In this document: positions 27,250 to 42,336 of the stretch, in pieces | Layout: every line of letters begins with the position of its first letter | How positions within the stretch are numbered: the first letter of the stretch is position 1 | Source of the DNA: a virus | Length of the DNA stretch: 51,094 nt | Virus record (IMG/VR): IMGVR_UViG_3300009597_000017 | Span: 1-51,094 of that record | Reading direction: 5' to 3' (one strand) | Notes under the pieces: model-generated | Seen by the model: the letters and a program-made list of their open reading frames with translations, nothing else | Told to the model about the DNA's origin: nothing | Databases searched by the model: none | Program-made: the position numbers and the translations under genes

Positions 27250-27250
27250 T

Positions 27251-31096: not shown

Positions 31097-31117
31097 AGTT
31101 GTCACCCTCCTATTTGA

Positions 31118-31288: not shown

Positions 31289-31834
31289 TTAATTACTCGC
31301 GCGCTGAATCGTCGTCCAAATGATTGCTTGCGTCTCGCTTACACTGCGCCGAATGTCCTTGGCAACTAGGCGCAAAGCTACAGCCAAATCGCGACTTCGC
31401 CGTTCGGTCGGCCATCCCGACTCACCGCCCGCGCGATACATCCACCGATCAATGACCGCCGCTCGCACATCGCCCATGAGCGCATATGCGAACGGAACAA
31501 CCTTCGGCCCGCTCAATGCCTTGAAGTTTCCGTCTCGCAAAATCTGAACGGCTTTGTCCAAGCAACGCGCATAATGCCCATGCGGGTCAGCGTTCGCCAC
31601 AACACTGAAGCAAACGTGTTGAAGCAATGCGACGTTTTGACTCCACTCCATGTTATTGCTCAAGGCAGCGGCGGCGAATGCCGTGCGCTTTAATGAAAAA
31701 CGAAATTCTCGCGCGACGTCATACAATTCGCCTCGCGCCATGGGATACCAAATTCGCCCGGCTTGAACGTCTTCGGCCGTAGCCGACTCCCAAATACTGC
31801 GCAGATTGCGCGCATACTGACTAATCGCGTCCAT
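31289..31834 (-). CDS. Conserved phage protein, DUF7178-like (181 aa)
   Basis: ATG at 31834 (MDAISQYARNLRSIW) chosen for GGAGG 6 bases upstream; the frame is open 16 codons further. The pattern ARNLRSIWESATAEDVQAG... GELYDVAREFRFSLKRTAF ... GPKVVPFAYALMGD matches a widespread phage family of unknown function found near replication genes. All-helical. Overlaps the PRTase gene by 14 bases. Confidence 0.65.
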   Translation of the reverse strand: MDAISQYARNLRSIWESATAEDVQAGRIWYPMARGELYDVAREFRFSLKRTAFAAAALSNNMEWSQNVALLQHVCFSVVANADPHGHYARCLDKAVQILRDGNFKALSGPKVVPFAYALMGDVRAAVIDRWMYRAGGESGWPTERRSRDLAVALRLVAKDIRRSVSETQAIIWTTIQRASN

Positions 31835-32309
31835 TGAGCGCCTCCAATTTGTCAAATCCGAATCGCGGAATCTCCTCGACATTTAAACGCGTTGCAGCCA
31901 AATCGCAGAACATCGACGAATAGAGCATAATGCCGCTTAGACGCGCATCAGGCATTGTCGACCTAATTGAATCTACAACATGCGTCAATGTCGTGCCGCT
32001 CGCAACTATGTCGTCGATGAACGCATAGCGCATAGCGTCAGGAACAACGCCATGCCATGGCAGTGAGTCATGCGCGCGCGAATCCGGCCCGTTTTTCTTA
32101 CGCACGGCAATGCCGGGAATTCCTGCCTTGAATGCAACAGCGCCAACGATCAATAGACCCGAATGGCCACAGCCTGCGATTGCCTCAAAGCGCTCTCGCT
32201 TAACAATGCACAAGGCCCACGCGACAACGCGGGCAAATTGTGCAACGTCAAACGATTTGCGCGAGTAGCTAGGCGCATGTTCATGCATACCGCGGTCAGT
32301 GTCGACCAT
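31821..32309 (-). CDS. Phosphoribosyltransferase-like protein (162 aa)
   Basis: PRPP-binding motif AFIDDIVASGTTL (Asp-Asp followed by SGTT), typical of type I PRTases, plus upstream IAGCGHSGLLIVGAVAF as the strand-loop that binds the phosphate. ATG at 32309 has GAGGA a few bases upstream. Substrate unclear: purine or pyrimidine salvage, or ComF-type. The frame overlaps the zinc-ribbon gene before it by 160 bases, an odd arrangement (see findings). Confidence 0.75.
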   Translation of the reverse strand: MVDTDRGMHEHAPSYSRKSFDVAQFARVVAWALCIVKRERFEAIAGCGHSGLLIVGAVAFKAGIPGIAVRKKNGPDSRAHDSLPWHGVVPDAMRYAFIDDIVASGTTLTHVVDSIRSTMPDARLSGIMLYSSMFCDLAATRLNVEEIPRFGFDKLEALNGRD

Positions 32310-32431
32310 TTTTCCTCTAACTTGCGGCCGCAATCAAGACACATGCCAAGCTCTTTACGCCAGACAAGCGCGGCGAATGACACGCGCTTAGGCTTGCGCT
32401 TCAAGAGCACGCCACATTTGCAAACGATCAT
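32150..32431 (-). CDS. Zinc-ribbon protein overlapping the PRTase gene (93 aa)
   Basis: ATG at 32431 overlaps the SprT stop (ATGA) and has AGGA 8 bases upstream. The first 45 residues form a zinc ribbon: CKCG ... MCLDCGRKLEEKW. The remaining 48 residues are read out of frame with the PRTase gene and look random, so the protein may be much shorter in effect or joined to the PRTase by frameshift. Confidence 0.5.
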   Translation of the reverse strand: MIVCKCGVLLKRKPKRVSFAALVWRKELGMCLDCGRKLEEKWSTLTAVCMNMRLATRANRLTLHNLPALSRGPCALLSESALRQSQAVAIRVY

Positions 32432-33027
32432 TTCCGCTTTCCTTTCGTCGAAGCCTCGCGCATAGCTTCAGAATTGCACGGGCACAACGGCGCGCCGGAT
32501 TCGTCAAGCCATTTGCGCGTGACGCGCGCAGTATAGCCGCACTCACAGCAAGAGACTTTGAGCAAGCGCGTAGTTTGAGGCTTTTCATTATCGCGCGGCG
32601 ACAGCGCAGCGTGCGGGTAGTCGCCAAGCTTAGACGCAATCTTGACCAATACGGCGCGCAATTCGTCGCCAGCGCCGGCCGACGTTGGCTTACCTTTAGT
32701 CAAGCCAATTGCCTTGCAAGCCGTAATGAATTTGCCATTATGGCCACTATGCGGGTCAATCGCCGCGTGTACCAATTCATGCGCCAGCGTGTCTAAGACT
32801 TCGACCGCGTCAGCCTCAATTGGCGTAATGAAGATTTGCGAAACGCCATCTTTGGCCGCCGATTGCTTCCAACACTGCCCAACAGCTTTGCGCTTCCCGC
32901 GTGGAAAGCCAACGCTTACCCGCACGACAGTAGGGACAGGAAACCCGACAGTGTCGAAGTGAGCGCGCAACGCGTCGACGCCAGAGGCAAGCCAAGCCTC
33001 GCGCGTGACATGCACGACAGTAGCCAT
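32428..33027 (-). CDS. SprT-like zinc metallopeptidase (199 aa)
   Basis: ATG at 33027 (MATVVHVTREAWL) with GGGGAA upstream; a longer frame exists but overlaps the promoter motif. Metallopeptidase motif AHELVHAAI (HExxH) followed by SGHNGKF, and a C-terminal zinc ribbon (CCECGYTARVTRKW ... CPC). SprT/Spartan relatives cleave DNA-protein crosslinks; phage versions are common. Length is right for the family (about 160-200). Confidence 0.8.
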   Translation of the reverse strand: MATVVHVTREAWLASGVDALRAHFDTVGFPVPTVVRVSVGFPRGKRKAVGQCWKQSAAKDGVSQIFITPIEADAVEVLDTLAHELVHAAIDPHSGHNGKFITACKAIGLTKGKPTSAGAGDELRAVLVKIASKLGDYPHAALSPRDNEKPQTTRLLKVSCCECGYTARVTRKWLDESGAPLCPCNSEAMREASTKGKRK

Positions 33028-33064
33028 AGATTCCCCTAGGTTAGGTATGACATCCTCTATCCTA

Positions 33065-33083
33065 AGTTTAAACCCCATGTCAA
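33065..33083 (-). promoter_or_regulatory. Promoter-like motif, TTGACA-N7-TAAACT, overlapping GTTTAAAC
   Basis: TTGACA (33083-33078), 7 bases, TAAACT (33070-33065) that overlaps GTTTAAAC (33066-33073). Lies about 40 bases before the SprT-like start. Third copy of the short-spacing motif. Upstream, 33112-33222 is element B: two CCTAGG sites, then GCCTAGGCGGGT with a GC hairpin and CTTTAACGC, related to 30264-30555. Confidence 0.4.
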
Positions 33084-33222
33084 GTACCTTGCCGCACTGG
33101 CGCCGCGCGTCCCTAGGAGTCCCTAGGCGTATTGCGGCGAACCTCCAAGGCGGCAAGGCTTAGAGCCTAGGCGGGTCGTTGCAACCCGCCCGCGCGCTTT
33201 AACGCGTTAGGCTTTTGTAAAG

Positions 33223-33432
33223 CTAGGACAAGACGGCCGTCACCATGCCATCGGCGACGCGTACGCGTGCATACCATCTATGAGGCTCGGGGAAGTGCGG
33301 CCCCTCGACGAATTCTTCCCCGTCTTGCTTACAGCCAAACGGGCCGGGCGAAAAAACGCTTATTCGCTGGCCGGCCTTGAGCGCTTCCTTGAGCGCTTTC
33401 TTGCTCTTGAAATTCGGGTCAGTGTAGGCCAT
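33223..33432 (-). CDS. Hypothetical protein (69 aa)
   Basis: ATG at 33432 with GGGGAAGCA directly upstream. MAYTDPNFKSKKALKEALKAGQ is helical and basic, then SPGPFGCKQDGEEFVEGPHF, a small beta region. Similar short proteins of the form 'FKSKKALKEAV..G...VF.PGPFG' are common in phages. Function unknown. Confidence 0.65.
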   Translation of the reverse strand: MAYTDPNFKSKKALKEALKAGQRISVFSPGPFGCKQDGEEFVEGPHFPEPHRWYARVRVADGMVTAVLS

Positions 33433-33446
33433 TGCTTCCCCTTGAT

Positions 33447-33752
33447 TTAGGCTTCAGTGAATTGAGGCGCCAACTTGGCTTGCGCCAATGCGAACGCTTC
33501 GCGGCCAGCCTCACTGCGCAAACGATCTAGCGGGCCATAGTACAGTGTGAATTTCGCGTTGTCGCCATACGTCGCCGCATTCCCCTCGACGTAGACATGG
33601 ACATAATCGCCGGGAGTGTCGCCTAGCGGCTCTTGCCACAGTGTGACCCCGACTTGTCCGCCCCAAGCTTGCGCGATTGTCTGAAGACGGCGAGACCCAA
33701 GCCTAGAAGCTTCGCCCCTTGCACCTTGAACGATTCCGCGAAAATGCGCCAT
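33447..33752 (-). CDS. Hypothetical protein (101 aa)
   Basis: ATG at 33752 with GGGGGATTCA upstream. MAHFRGIVQGARGEASRLG is a recognisable beginning of small phage proteins that carry a conserved 'GARGEASRLG' loop. Beta-rich middle (GDYVHVYVEGNAATYG). Function unknown. Confidence 0.65.
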   Translation of the reverse strand: MAHFRGIVQGARGEASRLGSRRLQTIAQAWGGQVGVTLWQEPLGDTPGDYVHVYVEGNAATYGDNAKFTLYYGPLDRLRSEAGREAFALAQAKLAPQFTEA

Positions 33753-33780
33753 TGAATCCCCCTTGCTTCAGGTTTAAAGG

Positions 33781-34029
33781 TCACACTAGCACGCTATTGC
33801 TTGAAACCTCGACGACTAAGACGGCTTGCTGTCCTAGCGCCGTTTTCAATTCGCGCGCGAAGTTGTAGACGCGCTCGCCGTCTTGCGTGTCAATTTCGAA
33901 CATTTGCGAGCGCTCAAACGTGCCGCGCCAGCAACCTACACCCCGCGTCAACGTAAAGCCGTCGAAATGACGCGCGGCAATGTCCCGCGCGTCATTGCTG
34001 AACGTGTCTTCAGTGTAGACCTTGAACAT
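33781..34029 (-). CDS. Hypothetical protein (82 aa)
   Basis: ATG at 34029 (MFKVYTEDTF) with GGAGGG 6 bases upstream; TTG two codons earlier is less likely. Alternating strands and an ARELKTALGQQAVLVVEV end, reminiscent of small metal- or nucleotide-independent phage accessory proteins. Function unknown. Confidence 0.6.
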   Translation of the reverse strand: MFKVYTEDTFSNDARDIAARHFDGFTLTRGVGCWRGTFERSQMFEIDTQDGERVYNFARELKTALGQQAVLVVEVSSNSVLV

Positions 34030-34031
34030 GT

Positions 34032-34172
34032 TCAACCCTCCACACGTGGCGGGTAGTCTCGCGCCGTCTCAATCTTGTCAATCTTGGCGACGATGTCGCA
34101 CGCATGCAAAGCGCTTACGCCAGCGATTGCCGCGTATAACGTGGCGGCAAGGATTCGGCCGATGCGCTCCAT
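34032..34172 (-). CDS. 46-aa exported small protein
   Basis: ATG at 34172 with GGGGGAAGC directly upstream. N-terminus RIGRILAATLYAAIAGVSALHA is a signal or membrane segment; the rest is a short charged tail. The final Cys-containing stretch (HACDIVAKIDKIE) could be a lipid-anchor site only weakly. It ends 2 bases before the next start. Confidence 0.5.
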   Translation of the reverse strand: MERIGRILAATLYAAIAGVSALHACDIVAKIDKIETARDYPPRVEG

Positions 34173-34207
34173 GCTTCCCCCTTAGTGCGAGTGAATGAAG
34201 CAGACAA

Positions 34208-34266
34208 ATGGCCGCCTAGGATTTGAACCTAGGAATGCACGCTGGCGCCTAATCGCCCGGCCCATG
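34208..34266 (-). other. tRNA-like T-arm and acceptor remnant
   Basis: Minus strand: canonical T-arm CTAGG-TTCAAAT-CCTAG (34232-34216) followed by GCGGCCA (34215-34209). Upstream a GGCG-ATTAGG-CGCC hairpin (34257-34244) and TGGGCCG only partly match an acceptor. No complete anticodon arm in place. A decayed tRNA or T-arm mimic; GTTTAAAC follows at 34266. Confidence 0.45.
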
Positions 34267-34292
34267 TTTAAACCTAGCTATGCCGTCAAGTG

Positions 34293-34466
34293 TCAGCGGC
34301 CCGGCTCTAGCGCGCCGTCGAGCGCTCGGCCGTCATTGCTCGACGTTTTAGAGCCGCGCTTGCGCTTATCGCCCCAGTGCTTCACGCGTTGCACGACTTC
34401 AAAACGGTACACTTCGCGCCAATCGTCGTAGCGCTTATCTTTGTCTTGCTGCTCTTGCCGTGTCAT
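34293..34466 (-). CDS. 57-aa hypothetical basic protein
   Basis: ATG at 34466 overlaps the upstream stop in ATGA, with GGGGGAAGC in front. Highly charged helical sequence (MTRQEQQDKDKRYDDWREVY...VKHWGDKRKRG). No family known to me. Overlap and ribosome site make it a good gene despite its length. Confidence 0.6.
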   Translation of the reverse strand: MTRQEQQDKDKRYDDWREVYRFEVVQRVKHWGDKRKRGSKTSSNDGRALDGALEPGR

Positions 34467-34777
34467 GCTTCCCCCAAGTCGGCGGCTAGGCCGCCAGCGA
34501 TTACGTTCACTTTGACAATGTCGCCGAGTGCGTCAAGGCTCTTGCCGCTCGCCAATGCTTCCATATCGGCGAGCGCTTTAACTAAGCCATTACGTGAGCG
34601 CGGGTAAATGCGGCCCGTGAATTCTGTTGCAATTGCGCGCATGTTGCTAGGCGTCGCCATGCGCGACGATTGCATGCGGCCGTTTGTCTGAATGTAAAGC
34701 TTGAGCGAGTGCATGAGCACAACGCCACGGAAACCTAGGATTGCGTTCCCGGTTACTGTCCCGTTATTGATTGGCAT
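34463..34777 (-). CDS. Hypothetical protein (104 aa)
   Basis: Starts ATG at 34777, no strong ribosome site. N-terminus AILGFRGVVLMHSLKLYIQ is strand-like; the middle RMATPSNMRAIATEFTGR resembles small phage proteins of the 'MRAIATEFTGK.Y' family (function unknown). Overlaps the 57-aa gene by 4 bases. First gene after the AT-rich gene-free region. Confidence 0.6.
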   Translation of the reverse strand: MPINNGTVTGNAILGFRGVVLMHSLKLYIQTNGRMQSSRMATPSNMRAIATEFTGRIYPRSRNGLVKALADMEALASGKSLDALGDIVKVNVIAGGLAADLGEA

Positions 34778-35351
34778 TAGTCGGCCGTCTTGGCGACGTG
34801 CGCCGTTGCTTCCGCCAGTGCTTCTACTTCATTGCCTAGCGTGTTGTCATCTCCACTGTACAGCGCGCTCTTGAGTCGGGTAGATGTTCGCTTCCCATTT
34901 TCAAGCTACCTAGACGTCGGCGCTTAGTCAAGTGCGTTGCAAGAGTCGCTGAACACAATTCGAACAAGCGTTCGAATTTGATTATGCAAAGCTAGTGCAA
35001 CAAAGCACTTTATAACGCAAAGTGCTTTGCATGTTTATGCGGCGATTAGGAAAAACGATTGGCCGAATCAGTGCAGTGAGATGAATAATTATACAACTAT
35101 GCGCATATTTATGCATTTGCGAATCGACGAGCGTGCATATTCAAACACGCATATGCGCGCATACGCATATTCATGCATTGATTGAGCATAGAGGCGCTGT
35201 TACAATTGACTATTTATACACTTCACATGCATATTAATACGGTCCTCTGCATAAAAATGCACGGTTCTAATGTGCTCAGGCATTGATCTTCAAAATATCG
35301 GGCTTGGTTTAAACAAAGGCGGGAATTGCAGTTGCGAAGCTTACAACAGGA
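34778..35351. other. 574-bp AT-rich gene-free region, candidate replication origin
   Basis: No supportable ATG, GTG or TTG-started gene. Perfect hairpins: AATTCGAAC-AAGC-GTTCGAATT (34957-34978) and CAAAGCACTTT-ATAACGC-AAAGTGCTTTG (35001-35029). Downstream, 35095-35260 repeats GCATAT/ATGCAT elements many times, with two weak DnaA-like sites (TTATACAAC, TTATACACT). One GTTTAAAC at 35307. Layout fits an origin or a control centre. A 28-codon frame with CTG start ends at 34778 and cannot be excluded. Confidence 0.5.
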
Positions 35352-35615
35352 TTACACGAGGGATTTGACTCGACGAACGCTGAATTCAAAGTTGCAGATG
35401 GCGCATCGAACGCGCGTCGACACGGGCTGTGGCGTCCAGAATGAGACATGGCCGCAGTTTGGACACATTACTCGGTGGGTGGCAAATCGGAGAGAGTCGT
35501 TCGTGATTTCAAACTTGTGCGAATCGGCACAATCAGAAGGCAAGTCGCACAAAAACGGCCCGAACACAACATGTGTCGGGCCGGGGCAGTTGTCGCAGCG
35601 GCGAATGCAAATCAC
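35352..35615 (-). CDS. Zinc-binding protein (87 aa)
   Basis: GTG at 35615 overlaps the upstream stop in GTGA. Several Cys pairs: ICIRRCDNCPGP, VMCPNCGHV, CAICNFEF, suggesting two zinc ribbons. Function unknown; a small nucleic-acid-binding protein is plausible. Confidence 0.6.
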   Translation of the reverse strand: MICIRRCDNCPGPTHVVFGPFLCDLPSDCADSHKFEITNDSLRFATHRVMCPNCGHVSFWTPQPVSTRVRCAICNFEFSVRRVKSLV

Positions 35616-36175
35616 TGCCGGCCACGCCACTTTGTTTTACACGCATAATAGTCGCCGACTCGAACTGGCGTGACTTCAATCTCCCAAATTACACAAGCCG
35701 TTTCGTCGCCGGCGATCACGACTTTGACTGGCGTCAAAACGTCGTTTAGACGGAACCATGACGAACTGCGCCAACCCAAAGGATCGACGAATTCAATCAC
35801 TCGACTGGCGACTTTTACGACCTCACGACATTGCTGACTGACATCGCCGCTTGAAACCACGACGGCATAAGTTTTTAAATCGTCAACATTAATGTCAAAG
35901 CTGGCGTCTGCCACAATTAAAACAACGCGCGTGTCGGCATATGGGAGTTTAAACGTGTGTCGCGAGCATTTCGGCACAATTCCAAGGAAGCGAGAGGCCG
36001 AGTCGACGGCGGGCGCTTGAACAATGGCAGGCAAATCAATTAATGTATTATTGACGATTTCAAGTCGGGCAACAACGCCGACTGGACTAAAGCTGCGCTC
36101 TGGAGGATTTTTGCCGTAGACAATAAAGCCGGCAATGAGCAGGACGGCAGGGAGGGATTTTAGAAATTCTAGCAT
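35612..36175 (-). CDS. Exported or membrane-anchored protein (187 aa)
   Basis: N-terminal hydrophobic segment (LPAVLLIAGFIVYG, about 8-21) then a periplasmic-type beta domain with FKLPYADTRVVLIVADASF and two Cys (KCSRH, QQCRE). No lipobox. Downstream of the tRNA-Gln gene. Function unknown. GTTTAAAC at 35947 codes Phe-Lys. Confidence 0.6.
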   Translation of the reverse strand: MLEFLKSLPAVLLIAGFIVYGKNPPERSFSPVGVVARLEIVNNTLIDLPAIVQAPAVDSASRFLGIVPKCSRHTFKLPYADTRVVLIVADASFDINVDDLKTYAVVVSSGDVSQQCREVVKVASRVIEFVDPLGWRSSSWFRLNDVLTPVKVVIAGDETACVIWEIEVTPVRVGDYYACKTKWRGRQ

Positions 36176-36176
36176 A

Positions 36177-36254
36177 GTTGCAGGTGTAGGAGTCGAACCT
36201 ACGAAGCCACGGATTCAAAGTCCGGGTACAAGTGCCGACATTGTAATCCTGCAA
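36177..36254 (-). tRNA. tRNA-Gln (TTG)
   Basis: Acceptor TTGCAGG/CCTGCAA; D-stem TACA/TGTA; anticodon loop CTTTGAA (TTG); T-arm GTAGG-TTCGACT-CCTAC. CCA not encoded. Confidence 0.85.
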
Positions 36255-36257
36255 TGT

Positions 36258-36284
36258 ACTGACTCGCCGATTCGGCGAATCAGT
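36258..36284. other. Hairpin between tRNA genes
   Basis: Near-perfect 13-bp inverted repeat ACTGACTCGCCGA / TTCGGCGAATCAGT with one mismatch. No T-run follows on either strand, so more likely a processing or stabilising element than a terminator. Confidence 0.5.
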
Positions 36285-36304
36285 GATTAATACTGTATTA
36301 AGAG

Positions 36305-36377
36305 CAGATCGCCAAGGAATCGAACCCTGTGGATACTCGTTTTGGAGACGAGCGCTCGCCCGGTGAGCTTGCGACCT
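36305..36377 (-). tRNA. tRNA-Trp (CCA)
   Basis: Acceptor AGGTCGC/GCGATCT, D-stem GCTC/GAGC, anticodon arm CTCGT-CTCCAAA-ACGAG (CCA), T-arm CAGGG-TTCGATT-CCTTG, discriminator G. Confidence 0.9.
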
Positions 36378-36380
36378 AAG

Positions 36381-36403
36381 ACTCGGCGAGTTAAGCGCCG
36401 AGT
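36381..36403. other. Hairpin downstream of the ice-binding lipoprotein gene
   Basis: Perfect 8-bp ACTCGGCG-AGTTAAG-CGCCGAGT. Lies between the tRNA-Trp gene and the stop at 36412. On the minus strand no U-run follows; it may protect or process the 3' end of the lipoprotein mRNA. Confidence 0.5.
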
Positions 36404-36411
36404 TTAAAAGC

Positions 36412-37098
36412 TTATGGAATCTCTACAACATTGCCAGCACCAAGCGTAACAGCGGCAGTACGCGCAAGAGCGCGACCACACAGCGAGGCACGAGCGTTGA
36501 ACGTAATGCTTGCATATGCCAGAATGTTGCCCTTGATCTTTGAATCAGTGCCGAGAGTCGCTGAACTGCCGACTAGCCAGAATACATTCTTGGCAGAAGC
36601 GCCGTTTTGCAGCTTGACCGAACCAGCAATAGTCAACGACGAGCCAGCCTTGAAGACATAGACTCCATCGCCATCCAGCGTCAAATCGCCGGTTAGACCA
36701 ATCGACGATGGCGCACAATAGACGCCAGAACTCAAGACTTGACCGCCTAGATCAGATGTAATCGTCGCAGAACACGGCAAATCGCCGAGTACGCGCATAG
36801 CAAGTCGCAAGTCGTCTTGGGCCTTTGCAGCAACAGCGTCGCCCAAATGCTTCTCGCCGCTCAATTCGCACGGACCAAAGCCAGTAAGAGCTTCGCCCGG
36901 CGAGATGCCGATTGAACCATCGACTTGACCGCCGGTTACGCAAGTGACTGTCGAACCGGCAAGGATTGCAAAGCCGCTAGACGCTCCAAGGAATTCCTTG
37001 GCCGGCGGCTGTGGCGGCAAAACGTCGTCAGGACCGAGATTATGCTCGCAGCCAAATGCCAGCAAGCACGCGGCGATTAGTGAGTAGAACTTCAACAT
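36412..37098 (-). CDS. Lipoprotein with DUF3494 ice-binding-like fold (228 aa)
   Basis: Signal peptide with lipobox LAFGC (Cys17). From residue about 37 the sequence follows the ice-binding-like (DUF3494) family: LGASSGFAILAGSTVTC, GSIGISPGEALTGF, GGQVLSSGVYCAPSSIGLTG, VYVFKAGSSLTIAG, NVFWLVGSSATLGT, and GRALARTAAVTLGAG. The fold is a discontinuous beta-solenoid; family members bind ice or act as surface adhesins. Cargo on a phage is unusual. One-base overlap with the OmpA-like gene, so co-expressed. Confidence 0.85.
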   Translation of the reverse strand: MLKFYSLIAACLLAFGCEHNLGPDDVLPPQPPAKEFLGASSGFAILAGSTVTCVTGGQVDGSIGISPGEALTGFGPCELSGEKHLGDAVAAKAQDDLRLAMRVLGDLPCSATITSDLGGQVLSSGVYCAPSSIGLTGDLTLDGDGVYVFKAGSSLTIAGSVKLQNGASAKNVFWLVGSSATLGTDSKIKGNILAYASITFNARASLCGRALARTAAVTLGAGNVVEIP

Positions 37099-38132
37099 TA
37101 CGAACCAACCTTTCGCAACTCAACACGACGATTCAATGGATTGTCACCTTCACGCGCTTCAGGGAATCGCGGCTGCGATTCTCCATAGCCAACGGCGTTC
37201 ATTCGACTGGCAGAAACGCCGCGGGACGCCAAGTAATTCTGAACAGATTCAGCACGAGCTTGGCTCAGCGCCTGATTGTACAACGTCGAGCCAATGCTTG
37301 ACGTGTGGCCAGCGATTTCAAACTTGACGCTCAACCACTGACTCTTGTTCAAGGCATCGGCGACACGATCAAGAATGTCCATAGCGGCAGAAGTCAACTC
37401 AGGAGAGTCGAATTCAAAATTCACGCCTTCAAGAACGAGCGTGTCTTTGATCTCAACCGTGGCAGGAGCGCAATCGCATAGAATGCGCACAGTGTCTGGC
37501 TTAGACGGCGCGTACTGAATGGCTGGCTTTTCGCGACCGTTCGTAAAGAGCGACAAACCGACGATCAACGAGTTGTTCCAAGCCGTCTTGGCGTTTGGCA
37601 ATTCGGCGAAGTGTTCAGCCGCGCGTCGAGCCTCGACCTTGAACATCACATACTTGCTCAAAGCAAGACGGAAACCAGCGCCGTAGAACGCGCCCCAAGT
37701 CGGATGCGTAACGTTGCCATTTCCAGTTACGCGAGTGAATTGAGTGCCGCCAGAAACAAATGGCGAGAACCGCGCATTCACATTGGCGGTCAGCGTCAAA
37801 TCGGCCGAAGGAGTCAAGAACTTAACTTCGCTACCATGCAGTGGCTTATAGCCAAAGGCGCCGAAGTTATTAAACGAGCGTCCACCGATTACGCCAACGC
37901 CGAATTGCACGTGCCGATTGACATTATAGCCGACTCGCGCGCCGGCAGCCGGAACGAACTGATTCTTGTTCCCGTTCGCGGCGAAGCTAGTGCTCAAAAA
38001 GTCAATCAAGTGCTTGTCGAAGTAATACGCGCCGACGCCAGCCGAATATTCAAAACTCCCCTCGCTGCGCTGAGCGGCGAGTGGAACGGCTAGACCGAGG
38101 CAAAGCAGGATTGTACAAAAGAGTTTAAACAT
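37098..38132 (-). CDS. OmpA-family outer-membrane protein (344 aa)
   Basis: Signal peptide ending VPLAAQ (about residue 20); an eight-strand type beta-barrel domain (about 25-190; YSAGVGAYYF, FGVGVIGGRSF, FYGAGFRLALSKYVMFKV); linker; C-terminal OmpA/peptidoglycan-binding domain (about 233-344; LEGVNFEFDSPELTSAA, FEIAGHTSS, DNPLNRRVELRKV) with the NRRVEL signature. Anchors the outer membrane to murein. A phage copy could remodel the host surface. GTTTAAAC covers the start region (38123). Own promoter at 38174-38202. Confidence 0.92.
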   Translation of the reverse strand: MFKLFCTILLCLGLAVPLAAQRSEGSFEYSAGVGAYYFDKHLIDFLSTSFAANGNKNQFVPAAGARVGYNVNRHVQFGVGVIGGRSFNNFGAFGYKPLHGSEVKFLTPSADLTLTANVNARFSPFVSGGTQFTRVTGNGNVTHPTWGAFYGAGFRLALSKYVMFKVEARRAAEHFAELPNAKTAWNNSLIVGLSLFTNGREKPAIQYAPSKPDTVRILCDCAPATVEIKDTLVLEGVNFEFDSPELTSAAMDILDRVADALNKSQWLSVKFEIAGHTSSIGSTLYNQALSQARAESVQNYLASRGVSASRMNAVGYGESQPRFPEAREGDNPLNRRVELRKVGS

Positions 38133-38173
38133 TAGAGCCTTTCAGAGCAAACTGCGCCGTCGATTAAGTTTGA

Positions 38174-38202
38174 AGTATAGCGCATTTTGGGCTAAAAGTC
38201 AA
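38174..38202 (-). promoter_or_regulatory. Promoter of the OmpA/lipoprotein pair (TTGACT-17-TATACT)
   Basis: TTGACT at 38202-38197, 17-base spacer, TATACT at 38179-38174. Near-consensus; lies 41 bases before the start of the OmpA-like gene and just downstream of the tRNA-Val gene. Confidence 0.75.
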
Positions 38203-38217
38203 GAGTGGTTAAGCTTA

Positions 38218-38288
38218 TGCAGTGCCTAGGAATCGAACCTAGTCTTCCTGCGTGTCGAACAGGTGTATTCTCCAACCTACGCGCACTG
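38218..38288 (-). tRNA. tRNA-Val (GAC), C33 variant
   Basis: Acceptor GCAGTGC/GCACTGC, anticodon stem CCTGT/GCAGG, loop TCGACAC: C instead of U at position 33, anticodon GAC. T-arm CTAGG-TTCGATT-CCTAG. Confidence 0.7.
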
Positions 38289-38302
38289 CGGCAAATTTAG
38301 AG

Positions 38303-38374
38303 TGGAGTAGAGGGGAGTCGAACCCCCGACTGCGGTTTGCGGGACCGCCGGTTTCCCGGTTAACCTACAACCCC
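38303..38374 (-). tRNA. tRNA-Ala (CGC), C33 variant
   Basis: Acceptor GGGGTTG/CTACTCC with G3:T70, the alanine identity pair. Anticodon arm GCGGT-CCCGCAA-ACCGC with C at position 33. T-arm GGGGG-TTCGACT-CCCCT. Confidence 0.72.
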
Positions 38375-38386
38375 ATATTCAAAAAG

Positions 38387-38457
38387 TGGAGCGTTAGGGA
38401 TTCGAACCCTAGACTTTTGCATGCCATGCAAATGCGTTCCCACTACGCCAATGCCCC
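38387..38457 (-). tRNA. tRNA-Ala (GGC)
   Basis: Acceptor GGGGCAT/ACGCTCC with G3:T70. D-stem GCGT/ACGC, anticodon arm TTTGC-ATGGCAT-GCAAA (GGC), T-arm TAGGG-TTCGAAT-CCCTA. Confidence 0.85.
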
Positions 38458-38694
38458 AATTTGACTCAACGCGTAATAGCCGCGCTTCTGTACCTATTCC
38501 CAACATCTGTCTAAGCCCCAACCCGACGTTCTCTAGGGTCAAGCAATCGTCTGTTTGGGTTGCTGCGTTGCATCGCCTTGGGTCTTGCCGTCTTTCGACA
38601 GCGCGTGTACCATCGCGCAAAGCGACTCCCCATTGCAGGCGCGAACTTCCTCGGAGGGGTGGGCCTCCGCGTTGGGCTGCGCGTTGAATCAAAA
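38458..38694. other. 237-bp spacer without a tRNA
   Basis: No T-loop consensus and no gene with a start and ribosome site. Contains a short hairpin CGGAGG-GGTGGG-CCTCCG (38652-38669). Composition similar to neighbouring structured spacers. Nothing else supported. Confidence 0.3.
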
Positions 38695-38766
38695 CTGAGG
38701 CGCTTGGACTCGAACCAAGATTTCATGGCTTAACAGGCCAGCGAGTTGCCGTTACCCTACACCCCA
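38695..38766 (-). tRNA. tRNA-Asn (GTT)
   Basis: Acceptor TGGGGTG/CGCCTCA, anticodon loop CTGTTAA (GTT), T-arm CTTGG-TTCGAGT-CCAAG, discriminator G. Confidence 0.85.
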
Positions 38767-38859
38767 AGGTTTAATGCCATCATGCTCCACGATGTGACAA
38801 TCGTCGCATATTCTTCGCACGACCGCGCTTCGCCTTCTCAAGATTCGTCAATGGCATAG

Positions 38860-38932
38860 TTGGAACGCAAGGGGTCGAACCTTGACTTTCGTGGTTCAGA
38901 GCCACGCGTGTTGCCGGTTACACCACGTTCCA
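38860..38932 (-). tRNA. tRNA-Gln (CTG)
   Basis: Acceptor TGGAACG/CGTTCCA, D-stem GTGT/ACAC, anticodon arm CGTGG-CTCTGAA-CCACG, T-arm CAAGG-TTCGACC-CCTTG. Confidence 0.9.
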
Positions 38933-38942
38933 AGGAAGAAAG

Positions 38943-39016
38943 ACTCGCCAATGGGATTCGAACCCATAGCCTACGCCTTCGCAGGGCGTTGCTCATTCCA
39001 ATTGAGCTTCGGCGAG
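38943..39016 (-). tRNA. tRNA-Arg (GCG)
   Basis: Acceptor CTCGCCG/TGGCGAG, D-stem GCTC/GAGC, anticodon arm ACGCC-CTGCGAA-GGCGT, T-arm ATGGG-TTCGAAT-CCCAT. Discriminator T, rare. Confidence 0.85.
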
Positions 39017-39087
39017 TTGAATGACATGCAACATTTATCATGGGGTCACAGTAGCTTTCGCCACGCTTAGCGCTTGCATGTCAAGAG

Positions 39088-39159
39088 TCTCGTCGGAGAG
39101 AGTCGAACTCTCACTGCGTGGTTCGAAGCCACGCCGTCTATCCGTTAGCTTACAACGAG
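39088..39159 (-). tRNA. tRNA-Arg (TCG)
   Basis: Acceptor CTCGTTG/CGACGAG, anticodon arm CGTGG-CTTCGAA-CCACG, T-arm GAGAG-TTCGACT-CTCTC. D-stem weak (3 bp). Confidence 0.82.
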
Positions 39160-39163
39160 AAAG

Positions 39164-39236
39164 TCGGAGGGGTTGGATTCGAACCAACAACGCCTTGGGC
39201 TTCAACCAAGCGCTCTACCATTGGAGCTACCCACCG
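39164..39236 (-). tRNA. tRNA-Phe (GAA)
   Basis: Acceptor CGGTGGG/CCCTCCG with one T-T mismatch, D-stem GCTC/GAGC, anticodon arm CTTGG-TTGAAGC-CCAAG, T-arm GTTGG-TTCGAAT-CCAAC. G at position 37 is unusual. Confidence 0.82.
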
Positions 39237-39242
39237 AAGAAG

Positions 39243-39316
39243 CGCGACTTGCCGGATTCGAACCGGCGATGTTCTCCGTGACAGGGAGACGAGGACGGCC
39301 ACTCCTCTAAAATCGC
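39243..39316 (-). tRNA. tRNA-Asp (GTC)
   Basis: Acceptor GCGATTT/AAGTCGC, D-stem GAGG/CCTC, anticodon arm TCTCC-CTGTCAC-GGAGA, T-arm GCCGG-TTCGAAT-CCGGC, discriminator G. Confidence 0.9.
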
Positions 39317-39320
39317 AGAA

Positions 39321-39425
39321 TTACTTGCGCTTAAAAATCTCGTCGATGAAATTGCGAACGAGCCAAAACGCGCAACAAACGACGATTAATAAAATTGCAA
39401 CAGCAACAACGTGTTCCATAGACAT
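39321..39425 (-). CDS. Possible 34-aa membrane microprotein between tRNAs
   Basis: Frame from ATG at 39425: MSMEHVVAVAILLIVVCCAF then WLVRNFIDEIFKRK, one membrane helix and a basic tail. No clear ribosome site. It fits exactly between tRNA-Asp and tRNA-Ser, where a small protein gene would be unexpected. Could be chance. Confidence 0.35.
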   Translation of the reverse strand: MSMEHVVAVAILLIVVCCAFWLVRNFIDEIFKRK

Positions 39426-39431
39426 TAAGAG

Positions 39432-39513
39432 CGGAAACGGAGGGAATCGAACCCTCGACGCGTAAGCGCAACCGTTTTCGAGACGGGTTCCTCGACCAGC
39501 CGGACCATTTTCC
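39432..39513 (-). tRNA. tRNA-Ser (CGA)
   Basis: Acceptor GGAAAAT/CGTTTCC (two weak pairs), anticodon loop CTCGAAA (CGA), long variable arm GCG-CTTA-CGC, T-arm GAGGG-TTCGATT-CCCTC, discriminator G. Confidence 0.82.
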
Positions 39514-39519
39514 AAGCCA

Positions 39520-39591
39520 GGGTTTAAGGAGGGTCTGGTACCTCCAAGTCGCGCTACCCGATTTCAGTCAGGCTATCTAGATCACCCAACC
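39520..39591 (-). tRNA. Degenerate tRNA-like element, Phe (GAA)-like
   Basis: Acceptor GGTTGGG/TTAAACC (one mismatch, two G-T), short D-arm without GG, anticodon stem CCTGA/TCGGG with a 6-nt loop CTGAAA, T-stem GGAGG/CCTCC with an 8-nt loop TACCAGAC. Geometry is tRNA-like but loops are non-standard. Confidence 0.4.
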
Positions 39592-39618
39592 GGCCTTTTG
39601 GCGGGGCCTCGCGTCATA

Positions 39619-39701
39619 CGGATTATGGAGGATTCGAACCTCCGGTGCGTTAGCACGGCGGTTTAGCAAACCGCTGCAATAAGCCTCTCTGCCAACAATC
39701 C
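39619..39701 (-). tRNA. tRNA-Ser (GCT)
   Basis: Acceptor GGATTGT/ATAATCC, anticodon arm GCGGT-TTGCTAA-ACCGC, long variable arm, T-arm GGAGG-TTCGAAT-CCTCC, discriminator G. Confidence 0.9.
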
Positions 39702-39762
39702 ACAGCCCGTTTCACTTTAGCTTTACTCGCATGGAAACGGTTCAGCATAAAGAACGCGATAG

Positions 39763-39845
39763 TGGTGGAAGTACGAGTCGAACGTACAGGGGGATTAACC
39801 GGCGCTTTTACAGAGCGTTGGACCTGCCAATGTACCAATCCCACC
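39763..39845 (-). tRNA. tRNA-Tyr (GTA)
   Basis: Acceptor GGTGGGA/TTCCACC, anticodon arm CGCT-CTGTAAA-AGCG, long variable arm, T-arm GTACG-TTCGACT-CGTAC. Confidence 0.88.
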
Positions 39846-39848
39846 AAG

Positions 39849-39920
39849 AGCCAAGGTTGGGTCTCGAACCCAAGATACCTAGGTACGAACTAGGTAGTTT
39901 ACCAACTAACTTACCGAGGC
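39849..39920 (-). tRNA. tRNA-Thr (CGT)
   Basis: Anticodon arm CCTAG-TTCGTAC-CTAGG, D-stem AGTT/AACT, T-arm TTGGG-TTCGAGA-CCCAA. Acceptor GCCTCGG/CCTTGGC has two mismatches; discriminator T. Confidence 0.75.
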
Positions 39921-39925
39921 ATAAC

Positions 39926-40017
39926 AGACACCTAGCAGAGCATCGCTGCTGTCCCATTGTACCGATGGTTGGGTCAGGGCTCCAAGAACTAGTATCCCAT
40001 CCTGACGTTAAGGTGTC
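39926..40017 (-). ncRNA. Structured RNA with tRNA-like acceptor (about 92 nt)
   Basis: Perfect 7-bp closing stem GACACCT/AGGTGTC, a T-stem-like AGCAG-CGATGCT-CTGCT next to it, a CCAT-CGGTACA-ATGG hairpin and a GTCAGG/CCTGAC stem. No canonical T-loop and no clear anticodon. Either a strongly altered type II tRNA or another RNA. Confidence 0.4.
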
Positions 40018-40020
40018 TAG

Positions 40021-40095
40021 TCCGCCCTGGTGGCTTTGCTCCACCCGCCTCCGGTGTATCAGACCGACGCTCTTGACTGAATGAGCTAAGGGCGA
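40021..40095 (-). tRNA. tRNA-Ile (GAT) with unusual elbow
   Basis: Acceptor TCGCCCT/AGGGCGG, D-stem GCTC/GAGC, anticodon arm TCGGT-CTGATAC-ACCGG (GAT), T-stem GGTGG/CCACC. The D-loop ATTCAGTCAA has no GG and the T-loop is AGCAAAG rather than TTCRANY, so both halves of the usual D/T contact are changed together. Confidence 0.7.
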
Positions 40096-40107
40096 AAAGG
40101 TACTAAG

Positions 40108-40179
40108 TGCATCGCCAGGGTAACGATCCCCGTTCTAGTGGTTAAGAGCCACTTGCTTCACCGTTAAAGCTTGCGGTGC
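40108..40179 (-). tRNA. tRNA-Lys (CTT), altered T-loop
   Basis: Acceptor GCACCGC/GCGATGC (one mismatch), D-loop with GG, anticodon arm AGTGG-CTCTTAA-CCACT, T-stem CGGGG/CCCTG with loop ATCGTTA, lacking T54 and A58. Confidence 0.75.
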
Positions 40180-40182
40180 ATA

Positions 40183-40313
40183 TGCTTTGGCAACGAGCCT
40201 GCCCATCTGACGAATAATAAGAGACCTTCGCTAGGTTACCCCTACTTATTTATCTCTTAGTGGGAGTTGAACCCACAAGGCGTTAGGTAGGTAACACCAA
40301 ACGTGCCAAAGCA
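40183..40313 (-). ncRNA. Candidate circularly permuted type II tRNA
   Basis: 131 nt closed by a perfect 10-bp stem TGCTTTGGCA/TGCCAAAGCA. In transcript order: a variable-arm-like hairpin GGTGTTA/TAACGCC, a canonical T-arm GTGGG-TTCAACT-CCCAC (40276-40260), an acceptor strand TAAGAGA (40259-40253), 28 nt, then its partner TCTCTTA (40224-40218), and a D-arm-like stretch with GATGGG. The 3' half of a tRNA thus precedes its 5' half. Alternatively an unrelated structured RNA. Confidence 0.45.
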
Positions 40314-40315
40314 AG

Positions 40316-40390
40316 TGCCCAACGGGGGATTCGAACCCCCATGCCGCTGTTTCTAAGACAGCGAGGTATACCAATTCCCATCAATCGGGC
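40316..40390 (-). tRNA. tRNA-Leu (TAG) lacking the long variable arm
   Basis: Acceptor GCCCGAT/GTTGGGC, D-loop GAATTGGTATA, anticodon arm GCTGT-CTTAGAA-ACAGC (TAG), T-arm GGGGG-TTCGAAT-CCCCC. Only GGCAT separates anticodon stem and T-stem; bacterial Leu tRNAs normally have a 10-15 nt variable arm. Confidence 0.82.
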
Positions 40391-40399
40391 CTATACTTC

Positions 40400-40427
40400 A
40401 ATATAGTCAATATTACTGTATAGTCAA
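40400..40427 (-). promoter_or_regulatory. Internal tRNA-array promoter (TTGACT-16-TATATT)
   Basis: AT-rich gap with TTGACT (40427-40422), 16 bases, TATATT (40405-40400), plus a direct repeat TATAGTCAATA. Points at tRNA-Leu (TAG) and genes downstream. Confidence 0.6.
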
Positions 40428-40447
40428 TAGTACAATAACAACTATAG

Positions 40448-40519
40448 AGCTAACACCAGGAATCGAACCCAGCCTAGTTGCTTACCAAGCAACCGTGCCA
40501 CCAACAACACTTCACCGAC
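40448..40519 (-). tRNA. tRNA-Thr (GGT), weak acceptor
   Basis: Anticodon arm GTTGC-TTGGTAA-GCAAC (GGT), D-stem GTGT/GCAC, T-arm CTGGG-TTCGATT-CCTGG. Acceptor GTCGGTG/TGTTAGC is mostly G-T pairs with one mismatch. Confidence 0.7.
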
Positions 40520-40540
40520 TTGTTGAATCAATGAGTCAAG

Positions 40541-40614
40541 AGCCGAATGTTGGAATCGAACCAACTCCCATCCGCATTACAAGTGCGGTGCGCGGCCATT
40601 TGCGCCAATCCGAC
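40541..40614 (-). tRNA. tRNA-Thr (TGT)
   Basis: Acceptor GTCGGAT/ATTCGGC, D-stem GCGC/GCGC, anticodon arm CCGCA-CTTGTAA-TGCGG, T-arm GTTGG-TTCGATT-CCAAC. Confidence 0.9.
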
Positions 40615-40618
40615 TAGA

Positions 40619-40688
40619 GTCACCTTGCGGGCCGCTACCCCCGCTCCGCCCCGGCCAGCCCGGCGTGCAGCGATTACACCATCGGTGA
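40619..40688 (-). tRNA. Degenerate tRNA-like element, Ala (GGC)-like
   Basis: Acceptor TCACC/GGTGA, D-stem GTGT/GCAC with loop AATCGCT (no GG), 17-nt GC-rich anticodon region with CTGGCCG, T-stem GCGGG/CCCGC with 8-nt loop GGTAGCGG. Spacing is tRNA-like, but the anticodon stem does not pair. Confidence 0.35.
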
Positions 40689-40694
40689 TTTAAG

Positions 40695-40776
40695 TGCAGC
40701 GAAGGGGATTCGAACCCCCACGTCTTTCGACAGTGGTTTTTGAGACCACCGCGTCTGCCAGTTCCGCCAAAGCTGC
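40695..40776 (-). tRNA. tRNA-Leu (CAA)
   Basis: Acceptor GCAGCTT/TCGCTGC (last two pairs weak), anticodon arm GTGGT-CTCAAAA-ACCAC, variable arm TGTCGAAAGACG, T-arm GGGGG-TTCGAAT-CCCCT. Confidence 0.88.
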
Positions 40777-40781
40777 AAAAA

Positions 40782-40853
40782 TGACGCGGTCGGGAATCGA
40801 ACCCGAGTTGATCGCTTGAGAGGCGACTTTCCGAACCACTAGAAGACGGCGTC
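40782..40853 (-). tRNA. tRNA-Glu (CTC)
   Basis: Acceptor GACGCCG/CCGCGTC, anticodon arm GTCGC-CTCTCAA-GCGAT, T-arm TCGGG-TTCGATT-CCCGA. Confidence 0.85.
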
Positions 40854-40857
40854 AAAA

Positions 40858-40933
40858 TGGCGGGGGTCGGATTCGAACCGACGTCATGTGGCTTATGAGA
40901 CCACCGCTGAAACCACTCCAACACCACCCCGCT
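40858..40933 (-). tRNA. tRNA-Met (CAT), initiator-like
   Basis: Acceptor AGCGGGG/CCCCGCC leaves an A1-C72 mismatch, like the unpaired 1-72 position of bacterial initiator tRNA; the 5' part AGCGGGGTGG also resembles fMet tRNA. Anticodon arm GTGGT-CTCATAA-GCCAC, T-arm GTCGG-TTCGAAT-CCGAC. Confidence 0.8.
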
Positions 40934-40938
40934 ATTTG

Positions 40939-40961
40939 AAAAAAAAAAACAAAAAAAAAAA
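40939..40961 (-). terminator. U11-G-U11 tract directly after a tRNA
   Basis: On the minus strand eleven T, one G, eleven T begin two bases after the tRNA-Lys (TTT) acceptor. The stable tRNA helix plus U-run may end transcription. The tract may be polymorphic in length or affected by sequencing. Confidence 0.45.
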
Positions 40962-40962
40962 G

Positions 40963-41034
40963 TCCAGCCGCTAGGATTCGAACCTAGAACTCGTCGCTTA
41001 AAAGGCGTGTGCGATGCCGTTTCGCCACGACTGG
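40963..41034 (-). tRNA. tRNA-Lys (TTT)
   Basis: Acceptor CCAGTCG/CGGCTGG, D-stem GCGA/TCGC with GG loop, anticodon loop CTTTTAA (TTT) on a 3-bp CGC/GCG stem, T-arm CTAGG-TTCGAAT-CCTAG. Confidence 0.75.
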
Positions 41035-41049
41035 ATATTCAACAACTCA

Positions 41050-41107
41050 ACGCTGTCTATACACTTGGGAATGACCCAACGTTCGTGGCGCCCACAATAG
41101 ACAGCGT
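41050..41107 (-). ncRNA. Small three-way-junction RNA
   Basis: 11-bp closing stem ACGCTGTCTAT/ATAGACAGCGT enclosing two hairpins, GTGG-GCG-CCAC and TTGGG-TCATT-CCCAA. 58 nt; not a tRNA. Lies between tRNA-Val and tRNA-Lys. Function unknown. Confidence 0.5.
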
Positions 41108-41112
41108 CGGAA

Positions 41113-41185
41113 TTGCTCAGCAGGGAATCGAACCCTGATTGTTTCTGTGTGTAGGACAGACGCCATACCACTAGGCGACTGAGCA
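41113..41185 (-). tRNA. tRNA-Val (TAC), C33 variant
   Basis: Acceptor TGCTCAG/CTGAGCA, anticodon arm TCTGT-CCTACAC-ACAGA with C at position 33, T-arm CAGGG-TTCGATT-CCCTG. Confidence 0.82.
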
Positions 41186-41189
41186 AAAG

Positions 41190-41260
41190 TGCGGTAAGCG
41201 AGAATCGGACTCGCCCGTCTGCCTTGGCAAGGCAGCATGCCACCACAACATTTCTACCGC
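41190..41260 (-). tRNA. tRNA-Gly (GCC)
   Basis: Acceptor GCGGTAG/TTACCGC, anticodon arm CTGCC-TTGCCAA-GGCAG, T-stem GCGAG/CTCGC with loop TCCGATT: C replaces the usual T55. Confidence 0.85.
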
Positions 41261-41388
41261 GAGCGCCGTTTATTTAATGTCAACACGGCAAAATGACAGA
41301 GCGACGCGCGTCGGCGTACACTCAAAAATCTGCGCCAAATCGGGGGCACCATTGCGAAGATGTCTTTAAGAGCGTCGCAATCGCTCTA

Positions 41389-41459
41389 AGTCGCAAGCGG
41401 GAATCGAACCCGCCTCGCCAGCTTGGAAGGCTGGAACACAGCCACTATGTCACTGCGAC
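41389..41459 (-). tRNA. tRNA-Gly (TCC)
   Basis: Acceptor GTCGCAG/TTGCGAC, anticodon arm CCAGC-CTTCCAA-GCTGG, T-arm GCGGG-TTCGATT-CCCGC. The spacer 41261-41388 has no supportable gene. Confidence 0.9.
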
Positions 41460-41474
41460 GAGATCAACGAGCAA

Positions 41475-41547
41475 TACCGCTTGACGGTTCCGACCCGTCT
41501 TTTCCGGCTTGAAAGGCCGGCGTCCTAGCCAGTAGACAGAAAGCGGC
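41475..41547 (-). tRNA. tRNA-Glu (TTC), altered T-loop
   Basis: Acceptor GCCGCTT/AAGCGGT, anticodon arm CCGGC-CTTTCAA-GCCGG, T-stem GACGG/CCGTC with loop GTCGGAA (G54, G58). Confidence 0.82.
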
Positions 41548-41649
41548 GTGGAGTGCCTAGAGCAATAAAGCTCACATTTACTGAATTGCCCGTATTTGGC
41601 CTAGGCTTCAACGGATTCAAAGCAACGCGTCTTGGCACATTTTTAAAAG

Positions 41650-41722
41650 GGTGTATGATGGGCCTCGAACCCATTCAACCGGCTTCACAGGCCGGCGCTC
41701 TACCAGTTGAGCTACAAACACC
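41650..41722 (-). tRNA. tRNA-His (GTG)
   Basis: Acceptor GTGTTTG/CATACAC with C at the discriminator and an extra 5' G opposite, the histidine hallmark. D-stem GCTC/GAGC, anticodon arm CCGGC-CTGTGAA-GCCGG, T-arm ATGGG-TTCGAGG-CCCAT. Confidence 0.9.
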
Positions 41723-41740
41723 ATGATGTAAAAAGGAAAG

Positions 41741-41813
41741 ACTGACATGCTGGAATCGAACCAGCCAATCGACGTTTTGCAGACGTCAGCGTTAACCGCT
41801 TCGCCAATGTCAG
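41741..41813 (-). tRNA. tRNA-Cys (GCA)
   Basis: Acceptor CTGACAT/ATGTCAG, anticodon arm GACGT-CTGCAAA-ACGTC, T-arm GCTGG-TTCGATT-CCAGC. Confidence 0.9.
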
Positions 41814-42110
41814 AAATTAAAGGGGGATATGCGCCGGCGACCGAAGTAGAAATAAAGATCACCCGCCATTGCCCAACAGTAGGCCCGCATTGCTGCGTTC
41901 ATGGACACTTCGTCAAACGAGCCACACTGTCATGGACTTTAGTAAGTGTCAAGCAAGAGTGTTAACCCTCCATTGACCGACCGATTCACCCGAAGGCAAA
42001 CCGACTACAAACGCGTTGACTAGACGATCTAAACCCCCGCCTCCAGTGAGCGGCTAACCGCCACCGGCACATACGCCCCCAGTTTTGAAGCAGTTTTAAA
42101 AGAGCAGAAG
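41814..42110. other. 297-bp spacer with a small hairpin RNA-like element
   Basis: No tRNA or gene supported. 41904-41950 folds as GACACTT/AAGTGTC around a TCGT-CAA-ACGA hairpin on either strand; a further GCGG-CTAA-CCGC hairpin lies near 42050. Function unknown. Confidence 0.35.
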
Positions 42111-42184
42111 TCGAGATTGTTGGAATCGAACCAACCCGATGCCCCGGTTCCGAACCGGGTTGCGCACCTTGCGCACGAACCTCG
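42111..42184 (-). tRNA. tRNA-Pro (CGG)
   Basis: Acceptor CGAGGTT/AATCTCG, anticodon arm CCCGG-TTCGGAA-CCGGG, T-arm GTTGG-TTCGATT-CCAAC. D-arm TGCGC-AAGGT-GCGCA has a short loop and long stem. Confidence 0.88.
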
Positions 42185-42189
42185 AATAT

Positions 42190-42257
42190 GTCGCTGCGAC
42201 TGAACGGCCAGTGGCTATAAGCCGTTTAAAGAGTGAGACCGCATCTTGGCCAGCGAC
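42190..42257 (-). ncRNA. Structured spacer RNA (68 nt)
   Basis: Closing stem GTCGCTG/CAGCGAC, inner stem GGCCA/TGGCC and hairpin GGCT-TAT-AGCC. Lies between the two tRNA-Pro genes. No tRNA loops; function unknown. Confidence 0.4.
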
Positions 42258-42262
42258 AAAAG

Positions 42263-42336
42263 TCGGCACTGCTGGAATCGAACCAGCCGGTTGTCCTGTT
42301 TCCAAAACAGGCGGCACACCTTGCGCCCGAGCACCG
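42263..42336 (-). tRNA. tRNA-Pro (TGG)
   Basis: Acceptor CGGTGCT/AGTGCCG, anticodon arm CCTGT-TTTGGAA-ACAGG, T-arm GCTGG-TTCGATT-CCAGC. First tRNA after the array promoter. Confidence 0.9.

Follow-up and report, generated by a model that had tools for sequence, protein, structure and literature searches.

A tRNA array of a phage holds a gene pair for an OmpA-type protein and a DUF3494 lipoprotein, probably captured from a Gemmatimonadota-type bacterium

Introduction

Why would a soil phage carry, among its tRNA genes, two genes for proteins expected in the envelope of its host? The question is raised by a locus in an IMG/VR virus record of 51,094 bases, the whole of which we analysed and refer to as the window. 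A first-pass annotation, made from the sequence alone, had noticed here a gene for an OmpA-family protein next to one for a lipoprotein of the ice-binding-like (DUF3494) family. It took the pair to be acquired cargo that could alter phage adsorption, adhesion or cold survival. We consider where the pair lies, what its products resemble, where else such pairs occur, and which role they fit best.

Integrity of the locus and structure of the gene pair

The window carries genes for terminase, portal, major head protein, DNA polymerase, recombination, virion proteins and endolysin, and neither an integrase nor a repressor was found among the scanned window proteins. One open reading frame (ORF; 19836–22514) fuses a uracil-DNA glycosylase superfamily domain (residues 16–201) to a family A DNA polymerase (residues 523–886). 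A second IMG/VR record, IMGVR_UViG_3300012175_000189, is identical to window positions 26415–40731 (14.3 kb) save for one base, at 32177, and spans both junctions of the pair; the two records are possibly not fully independent samples. Because this record matches across them, the borders of the pair are not an artefact of assembly. A host contig join is ruled out by the same junctions, and the description of the locus as phage-borne holds.

Two intact ORFs occupy the minus strand at 36412–38132, sharing a stop/start overlap (TAATG, 37096–37100), as expected of the two-gene unit first described. The OmpA-type gene (37098–38132, minus strand) encodes 344 residues and precedes the DUF3494 lipoprotein gene (36412–37098, minus strand), which encodes 228. 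Candidate Shine-Dalgarno sequences (AAAGG, minus strand), read from the sequence, lie five nucleotides before the OmpA-type ATG (38138–38142) and, within the OmpA-type gene, 10 nucleotides before the DUF3494 ATG (37109–37113). Upstream of the pair is a candidate sigma-70-type promoter (TTGACT-N17-TATACT, 38174–38202, minus strand) that matches the consensus at 10 of 12 positions and is plausible as the promoter of the pair. The surrounding 8-kb region contains 11 promoter-like sites, against 5.5 ± 2.2 in shuffles; four match at 10 or more of the 12 positions, including the one at 38202–38174, and three of these four lie on the tRNA strand. Since comparable sites also stand before other stretches of the tRNA array, on the same strand, the candidate may be the array's own or an internal promoter that serves the array too. 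The near-consensus promoter announced in the first-pass annotation is thus present, but it may not be private to the pair.

An empty site in the tRNA array of a relative

The pair lies within a minus-strand array of 30 tRNA genes, which together represent all 20 amino acids, at 36177–42336. ARAGORN places tRNA-Trp (cca; 36304–36377, minus strand) at its downstream border and tRNA-Val (gac; 38218–38289, minus strand) at its upstream border, and the 1,840 bases between them hold the pair. In the related phage locus L201, tRNA-Trp (4816–4890) and tRNA-Val (4892–4963) are one nucleotide apart; this junction is the empty site for the pair.

Related phages, with capsid proteins 73–84% identical, have a tRNA array at the same place, with 28–33 tRNA genes in four of the five lineages for which array sequence was available and three in the fifth, L203 (ARAGORN). 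The fetched loci of these relatives gave no match to either OmpA or DUF3494, and the pair is present in only this phage among about five related lineages. The empty site and the absence from relatives both agree with the proposal that the pair is acquired cargo. Copies of a 9-base direct repeat, AAGCTTATG, stand on either side of the insert, at 36409–36417 and 38211–38219; the repeat may be a trace of the insertion or, at such a length, a product of chance.

Two predicted envelope proteins

The OmpA-type protein comprises a signal peptide, an N-terminal outer-membrane barrel domain (residues 8–194) and a C-terminal OmpA domain (residues 239–334). Both domains score above the Pfam cut-offs (PF13505, OMP_b-brl, E = 1.7e-13, 51.5 bits; PF00691, OmpA, E = 3e-22, 79.2 bits), and by these profiles the protein belongs to the OmpA family, as had been claimed. 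The predicted barrel rests on the PF13505 match; the AlphaFold2 (AF2) model, built on a shallow alignment of six rows, has a pLDDT of 42.6. In OmpA domains, a conserved aspartate and arginine belong to the peptidoglycan pocket, and they are not required for Pfam membership. Here, Arg293 is retained and Ser278 occupies the position of the aspartate found in most relatives. Because of this replacement, peptidoglycan binding may be weak. The OmpA-type protein of the Gemmatimonadota locus L187 (45.6% identity over aligned columns) likewise has serine at this position, and the motif GHTSS is common to both.

The DUF3494 protein was read as a lipobox (LAFGC, with the predicted lipidated position at Cys17), a linker of about 19 residues and a DUF3494 domain spanning residues 37–228. 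Its signal peptide and lipobox, MLKFYSLIAACLLAFGC, have the form of a bacterial lipoprotein and fit the PROSITE lipobox pattern, and the domain matches PF11999 (Ice_binding) with E = 7.1e-46 and 156.9 bits against a cut-off of 28.7. The AF2 model is a confident beta-solenoid with the long helix expected of the family (pLDDT 89.5), whose best Foldseek match is the ice-binding protein structure 6eio (TM 0.83/0.85, 1.5 Å). Four cysteines (Cys53, Cys77, Cys109 and Cys128) are common to it and the Gemmatimonadota proteins compared. The family assignment, the expected solenoid and the predicted export of both proteins to the envelope are all upheld by these results.

The fold invites the question of ice binding. 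The phage protein shares the beta-solenoid (TM 0.83) and about 40% identity with EfcIBP (6eio) and AnpIBP (7bwx), and differs, as far as sequence and model tell, in its predicted lipid anchor and in the make-up of its ice-binding face. We mapped this face by alignment to AnpIBP (chain number = paper number + 6 in our mapping). Small residues predominate in its B-face segments (STVTCV, EALT, SSIGLT, SSL-TI, SSATLG, ASITFN and AAVTLG), and Glu69 is located on it. Column 2 (T50, A70, S132, S154, S179, S197 and A216) is a mixture of Ser, Thr and Ala that resembles the weak EfcIBP rather than SfIBP; such a mixture, as opposed to an all-Ala column, goes with weaker ice binders and less icy habitats, and DUF3494 proteins are common in ice-free habitats (PMC12337378). 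The segment SSATLG is identical to S153–G158 of AnpIBP, where the substitutions S153Y and T156Y reduce activity (PMC7277481). However, this segment is family-wide, with S178, S179 and G183 invariant and A180 and T181 nearly so in our alignment, and it is present in actinobacterial and other DUF3494 homologues too. Taken together, the face is an ambiguous guide to ice binding.

Recurrent DUF3494–OmpA gene pairs in Gemmatimonadota

Among 84,980 species genomes, scanned with short patterns that can miss relatives, the top three DUF3494 loci all belong to Gemmatimonadota, and each has an OmpA gene 63–76 bases downstream on the same strand. The nearest cellular relatives of the phage DUF3494 protein are likewise from this phylum (54–56%). 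A survey of representative genomes, many of them metagenome-assembled (MAGs), found DUF3494 in 32 of 298 Gemmatimonadota genomes, with OmpA directly downstream on the same strand in 13 of the 30 loci examined (L173, L176, L180, L182–L185, L187–L189, L191, L192 and L194). By our estimate, which is based on first-look counts of about 4–13 candidate OmpA genes per listed genome, adjacency by chance is expected in well under 1% of cases. When the OmpA-type protein was searched by itself in the 298 genomes, seven of the eight strongest matches adjoined DUF3494. The pair is rarer in Acidobacteriota (3/30 loci) and in the phylum to which the Deltaproteobacteria MAG L109 belongs (5/30 loci). We know of no description of this recurrent bacterial gene pair.

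In a tree of 251 rows, the phage DUF3494 protein and 15 Gemmatimonadota proteins form a single clade of 16 rows with a support of 97, and 12 of these 15 have OmpA directly downstream. The phage pair and the Gemmatimonadota pairs (such as L187, L087–L089, L176 and L182–L185) thus share the same two adjoining families on one strand, this clade, the four cysteines and, in OmpA-type proteins up to 45.6% identical, the GHTSS motif. They differ in order, stalk and composition. The host order is DUF3494 then OmpA, whereas the phage order is reversed, so that the capture may not have been a simple one-step event; L109 and L120 have OmpA first, as in the phage. Most of the Gemmatimonadota partners are lipoproteins built of several Ig-like repeats, with DUF3494 as a terminal domain; next to their OmpA-type protein they resemble lipoprotein adhesins on a stalk, whereas the phage protein has no stalk. 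The GC content of the phage pair is 53–55%, as in other phage genes, against 65–73% in the host homologues, so that the capture was probably not recent; a recent transfer is also not supported by codon use (GC3), which matches the phage. Together with the intact frames and coupled starts, this composition suggests that the pair has been retained for some time. Separately, the difference in GC content may bear on codon supply by the array of 30 tRNAs.

From these comparisons, the pair is no invention of the phage but a recurrent cellular pair of Gemmatimonadota, scattered also in Acidobacteriota and another phylum, and we regard its capture as a host surface module as highly probable.

DUF3494 and OmpA domains in other phages

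DUF3494 was found in none of 50,697 phage records and in none of the PHROGs, by which we reject the idea that the pair was invented in phages or is common among them. An alignment-based scan of IMG/VR, again with short patterns that can miss relatives, found 75 viral DUF3494 loci, with an OmpA neighbour only in the same phage. Most of these loci encode the domain inside larger, mostly unexported ORFs, and nearly all viral DUF3494 rows are placed elsewhere in the tree than the window's protein. What they share with it is the domain family; the window's protein is a lipoprotein, and theirs are parts of larger proteins. Other OmpA-domain proteins of phages (phrog_7897 and Acinetobacter and Cellulophaga phage records) share the C-terminal OmpA domain, mostly that domain only, at 26–41% identity in the rows listed, and DUF3494 is absent from that collection.

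Among 62 viral DUF3494 ORFs scanned against PHROGs, five matched phrog_2839, five phrog_279 and one phrog_10244 (all tail sheath), and four matched phrog_20658 (head decoration); these memberships may overlap. Pfam sheath domains were found in one viral DUF3494 ORF. Loci with DUF3494 in virion-type ORFs include L034, L036, L040, L041, L043, L046–L053, L064, L069–L074, L080 and L082–L084, where sheath matches were assigned to named loci from their N-termini rather than from a per-locus readout. The presence of DUF3494 in proteins that match tail sheath and head decoration families is a separate observation, and perhaps a more surprising one than the captured pair. On three viral contigs (L022:6090–7034, L042:7536–8609 and L066:7752–8810), signal-peptide-bearing DUF3494 proteins are encoded amid structural or lysis genes; an exported DUF3494 protein is therefore not unique to the window phage.

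In the open-licence literature no paper turned up that deals with DUF3494 in phages, and searches for ice-binding with tail sheath, or for ice-binding protein with OmpA and bacteriophage, returned nothing. The first-pass statement that no such pair had been described therefore stands for phages, across the phage records, PHROGs and literature searched, but the pair itself is recurrent in Gemmatimonadota.

Likely host of the phage

Relatives of the capsid protein occur in contigs of three of 395 Gemmatimonadota genomes and none of 396 Acidobacteriota genomes. Two of these three contigs encode further homologues of window proteins, and binning errors are possible. Both are 42–44 kb and binned with Gemmatimonadota: contig 111 of G116 (L278/L279) has a capsid relative with portal and terminase, and contig 39 of G281 (L280/L281) a capsid relative with other phage homologues. 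They are candidate phages or prophages of Gemmatimonadota. Given these binned contigs and the ancestry of the pair, Gemmatimonadota is probably the host phylum, although this assignment is indirect and the difference in GC content noted above speaks against it. The search term ‘Gemmatimonadetes phage’ returned nothing in the open literature.

Discussion

We propose that a lineage of this phage captured a two-gene envelope module from a Gemmatimonadota-type bacterium into the tRNA-Trp/tRNA-Val gap of its array. During infection the pair would be transcribed from its own or an array promoter, and the OmpA-type protein would insert into the outer membrane. The lipoprotein, held by its N-terminal lipid and lacking the host's long Ig stalk, would lie flat on the membrane beside it, and the two would replace or mask the host's version of the same surface complex. 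Further phages that use the masked surface would then most likely fail to adsorb, which is superinfection exclusion. For this function the chance seems to us slightly below even, and the full account, in which a captured Gemmatimonadota-type module in the tRNA array remodels the outer membrane and most likely blocks further adsorption, is held just as tentatively.

T5 Llp, an outer-membrane lipoprotein that blocks the T5 receptor FhuA, offers a parallel. It resembles the phage DUF3494 protein as a phage-encoded lipoprotein of the infected cell's outer membrane (here predicted from sequence), but the two are unrelated in size and fold, Llp has no OmpA partner, and receptor block is a feature of Llp. 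Llp is described as a superinfection-exclusion lipoprotein of a phage (PMC9586334).

The most serious rival is adhesion to a solid or cellular surface through the DUF3494 domain, with the OmpA-type protein as anchor and display; infected cells would stay attached or clumped, which would help the burst to reach new hosts. The adhesin-like layout of the Gemmatimonadota partners and the DUF3494 domains in virion proteins of other phages favour this, but the phage version has no stalk to carry the domain past the cell surface, and we consider adhesion possible but doubtful. Because a stalkless lipoprotein would lie on the membrane, masking seems a better fit than contact with a distant substrate. 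Alternatively, the lipoprotein might be turned towards the periplasm. The pair might also be a passenger of no present benefit that recombination within the tRNA array brought in and that is not yet lost. Arrays do differ between the relatives, and the pair is confined to one lineage among about five; two intact, coupled frames with conserved motifs and phage-like GC and GC3, unchanged in two IMG/VR records, make a mere passenger unlikely.

Protection of infected cells in freezing soil through inhibition of ice recrystallisation has in its favour the solved ice-binding protein as best fold match and the SSATLG segment. The segment is family-wide, however, column 2 resembles that of a weak binder, Glu69 is on the face, the nearest relatives, from Gemmatimonadota, appear to give no reason to expect ice binding, and the OmpA partner would be left unexplained. 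The cold-survival role raised in the first-pass annotation is accordingly not borne out, and we judge it improbable. More improbable still is a part in envelope maintenance or lysis timing, in which the pair would protect the outer membrane from lysing too early or aid its later rupture. The OmpA C-terminal domain and an endolysin elsewhere in the window are compatible with this, but Ser278 may weaken peptidoglycan binding, the pair does not lie in a lysis cassette, and the lipoprotein is unlike spanins in size and fold. As for known anti-phage defence systems, PADLOC gave no DUF3494 match, the resemblance to ZorB was confined to a generic OmpA/MotB-domain similarity, and we discarded this possibility. 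Superinfection exclusion by surface masking remains our preferred reading.

A wider reading is that phages repeatedly domesticate the DUF3494 fold for surface binding, here as a lipoprotein with OmpA on the infected cell and in many soil phages as virion proteins, some of which match tail sheath or head decoration families. On this view the ‘ice-binding’ family is for the most part a fold for adhesion in general, common to bacterial surfaces and phages. We think this conceivable, with the balance rather against it.

The association of DUF3494 with OmpA is itself not new, since it occurs in cellular genomes; carriage of the pair by a phage appears unmatched in the sources searched. The locus documents how a phage captured, with the high probability judged above, two neighbouring envelope genes of its host; a relative has the empty site, and the donor lineage can be traced. 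The likely host of the phage belongs to a soil phylum for which our open literature search found no phage reports. It also ties a bacterial pair of DUF3494 lipoprotein and OmpA-type protein, so far unexplained, to the interaction of phage and host, and the phage copy offers a concrete route to testing what that pair does.
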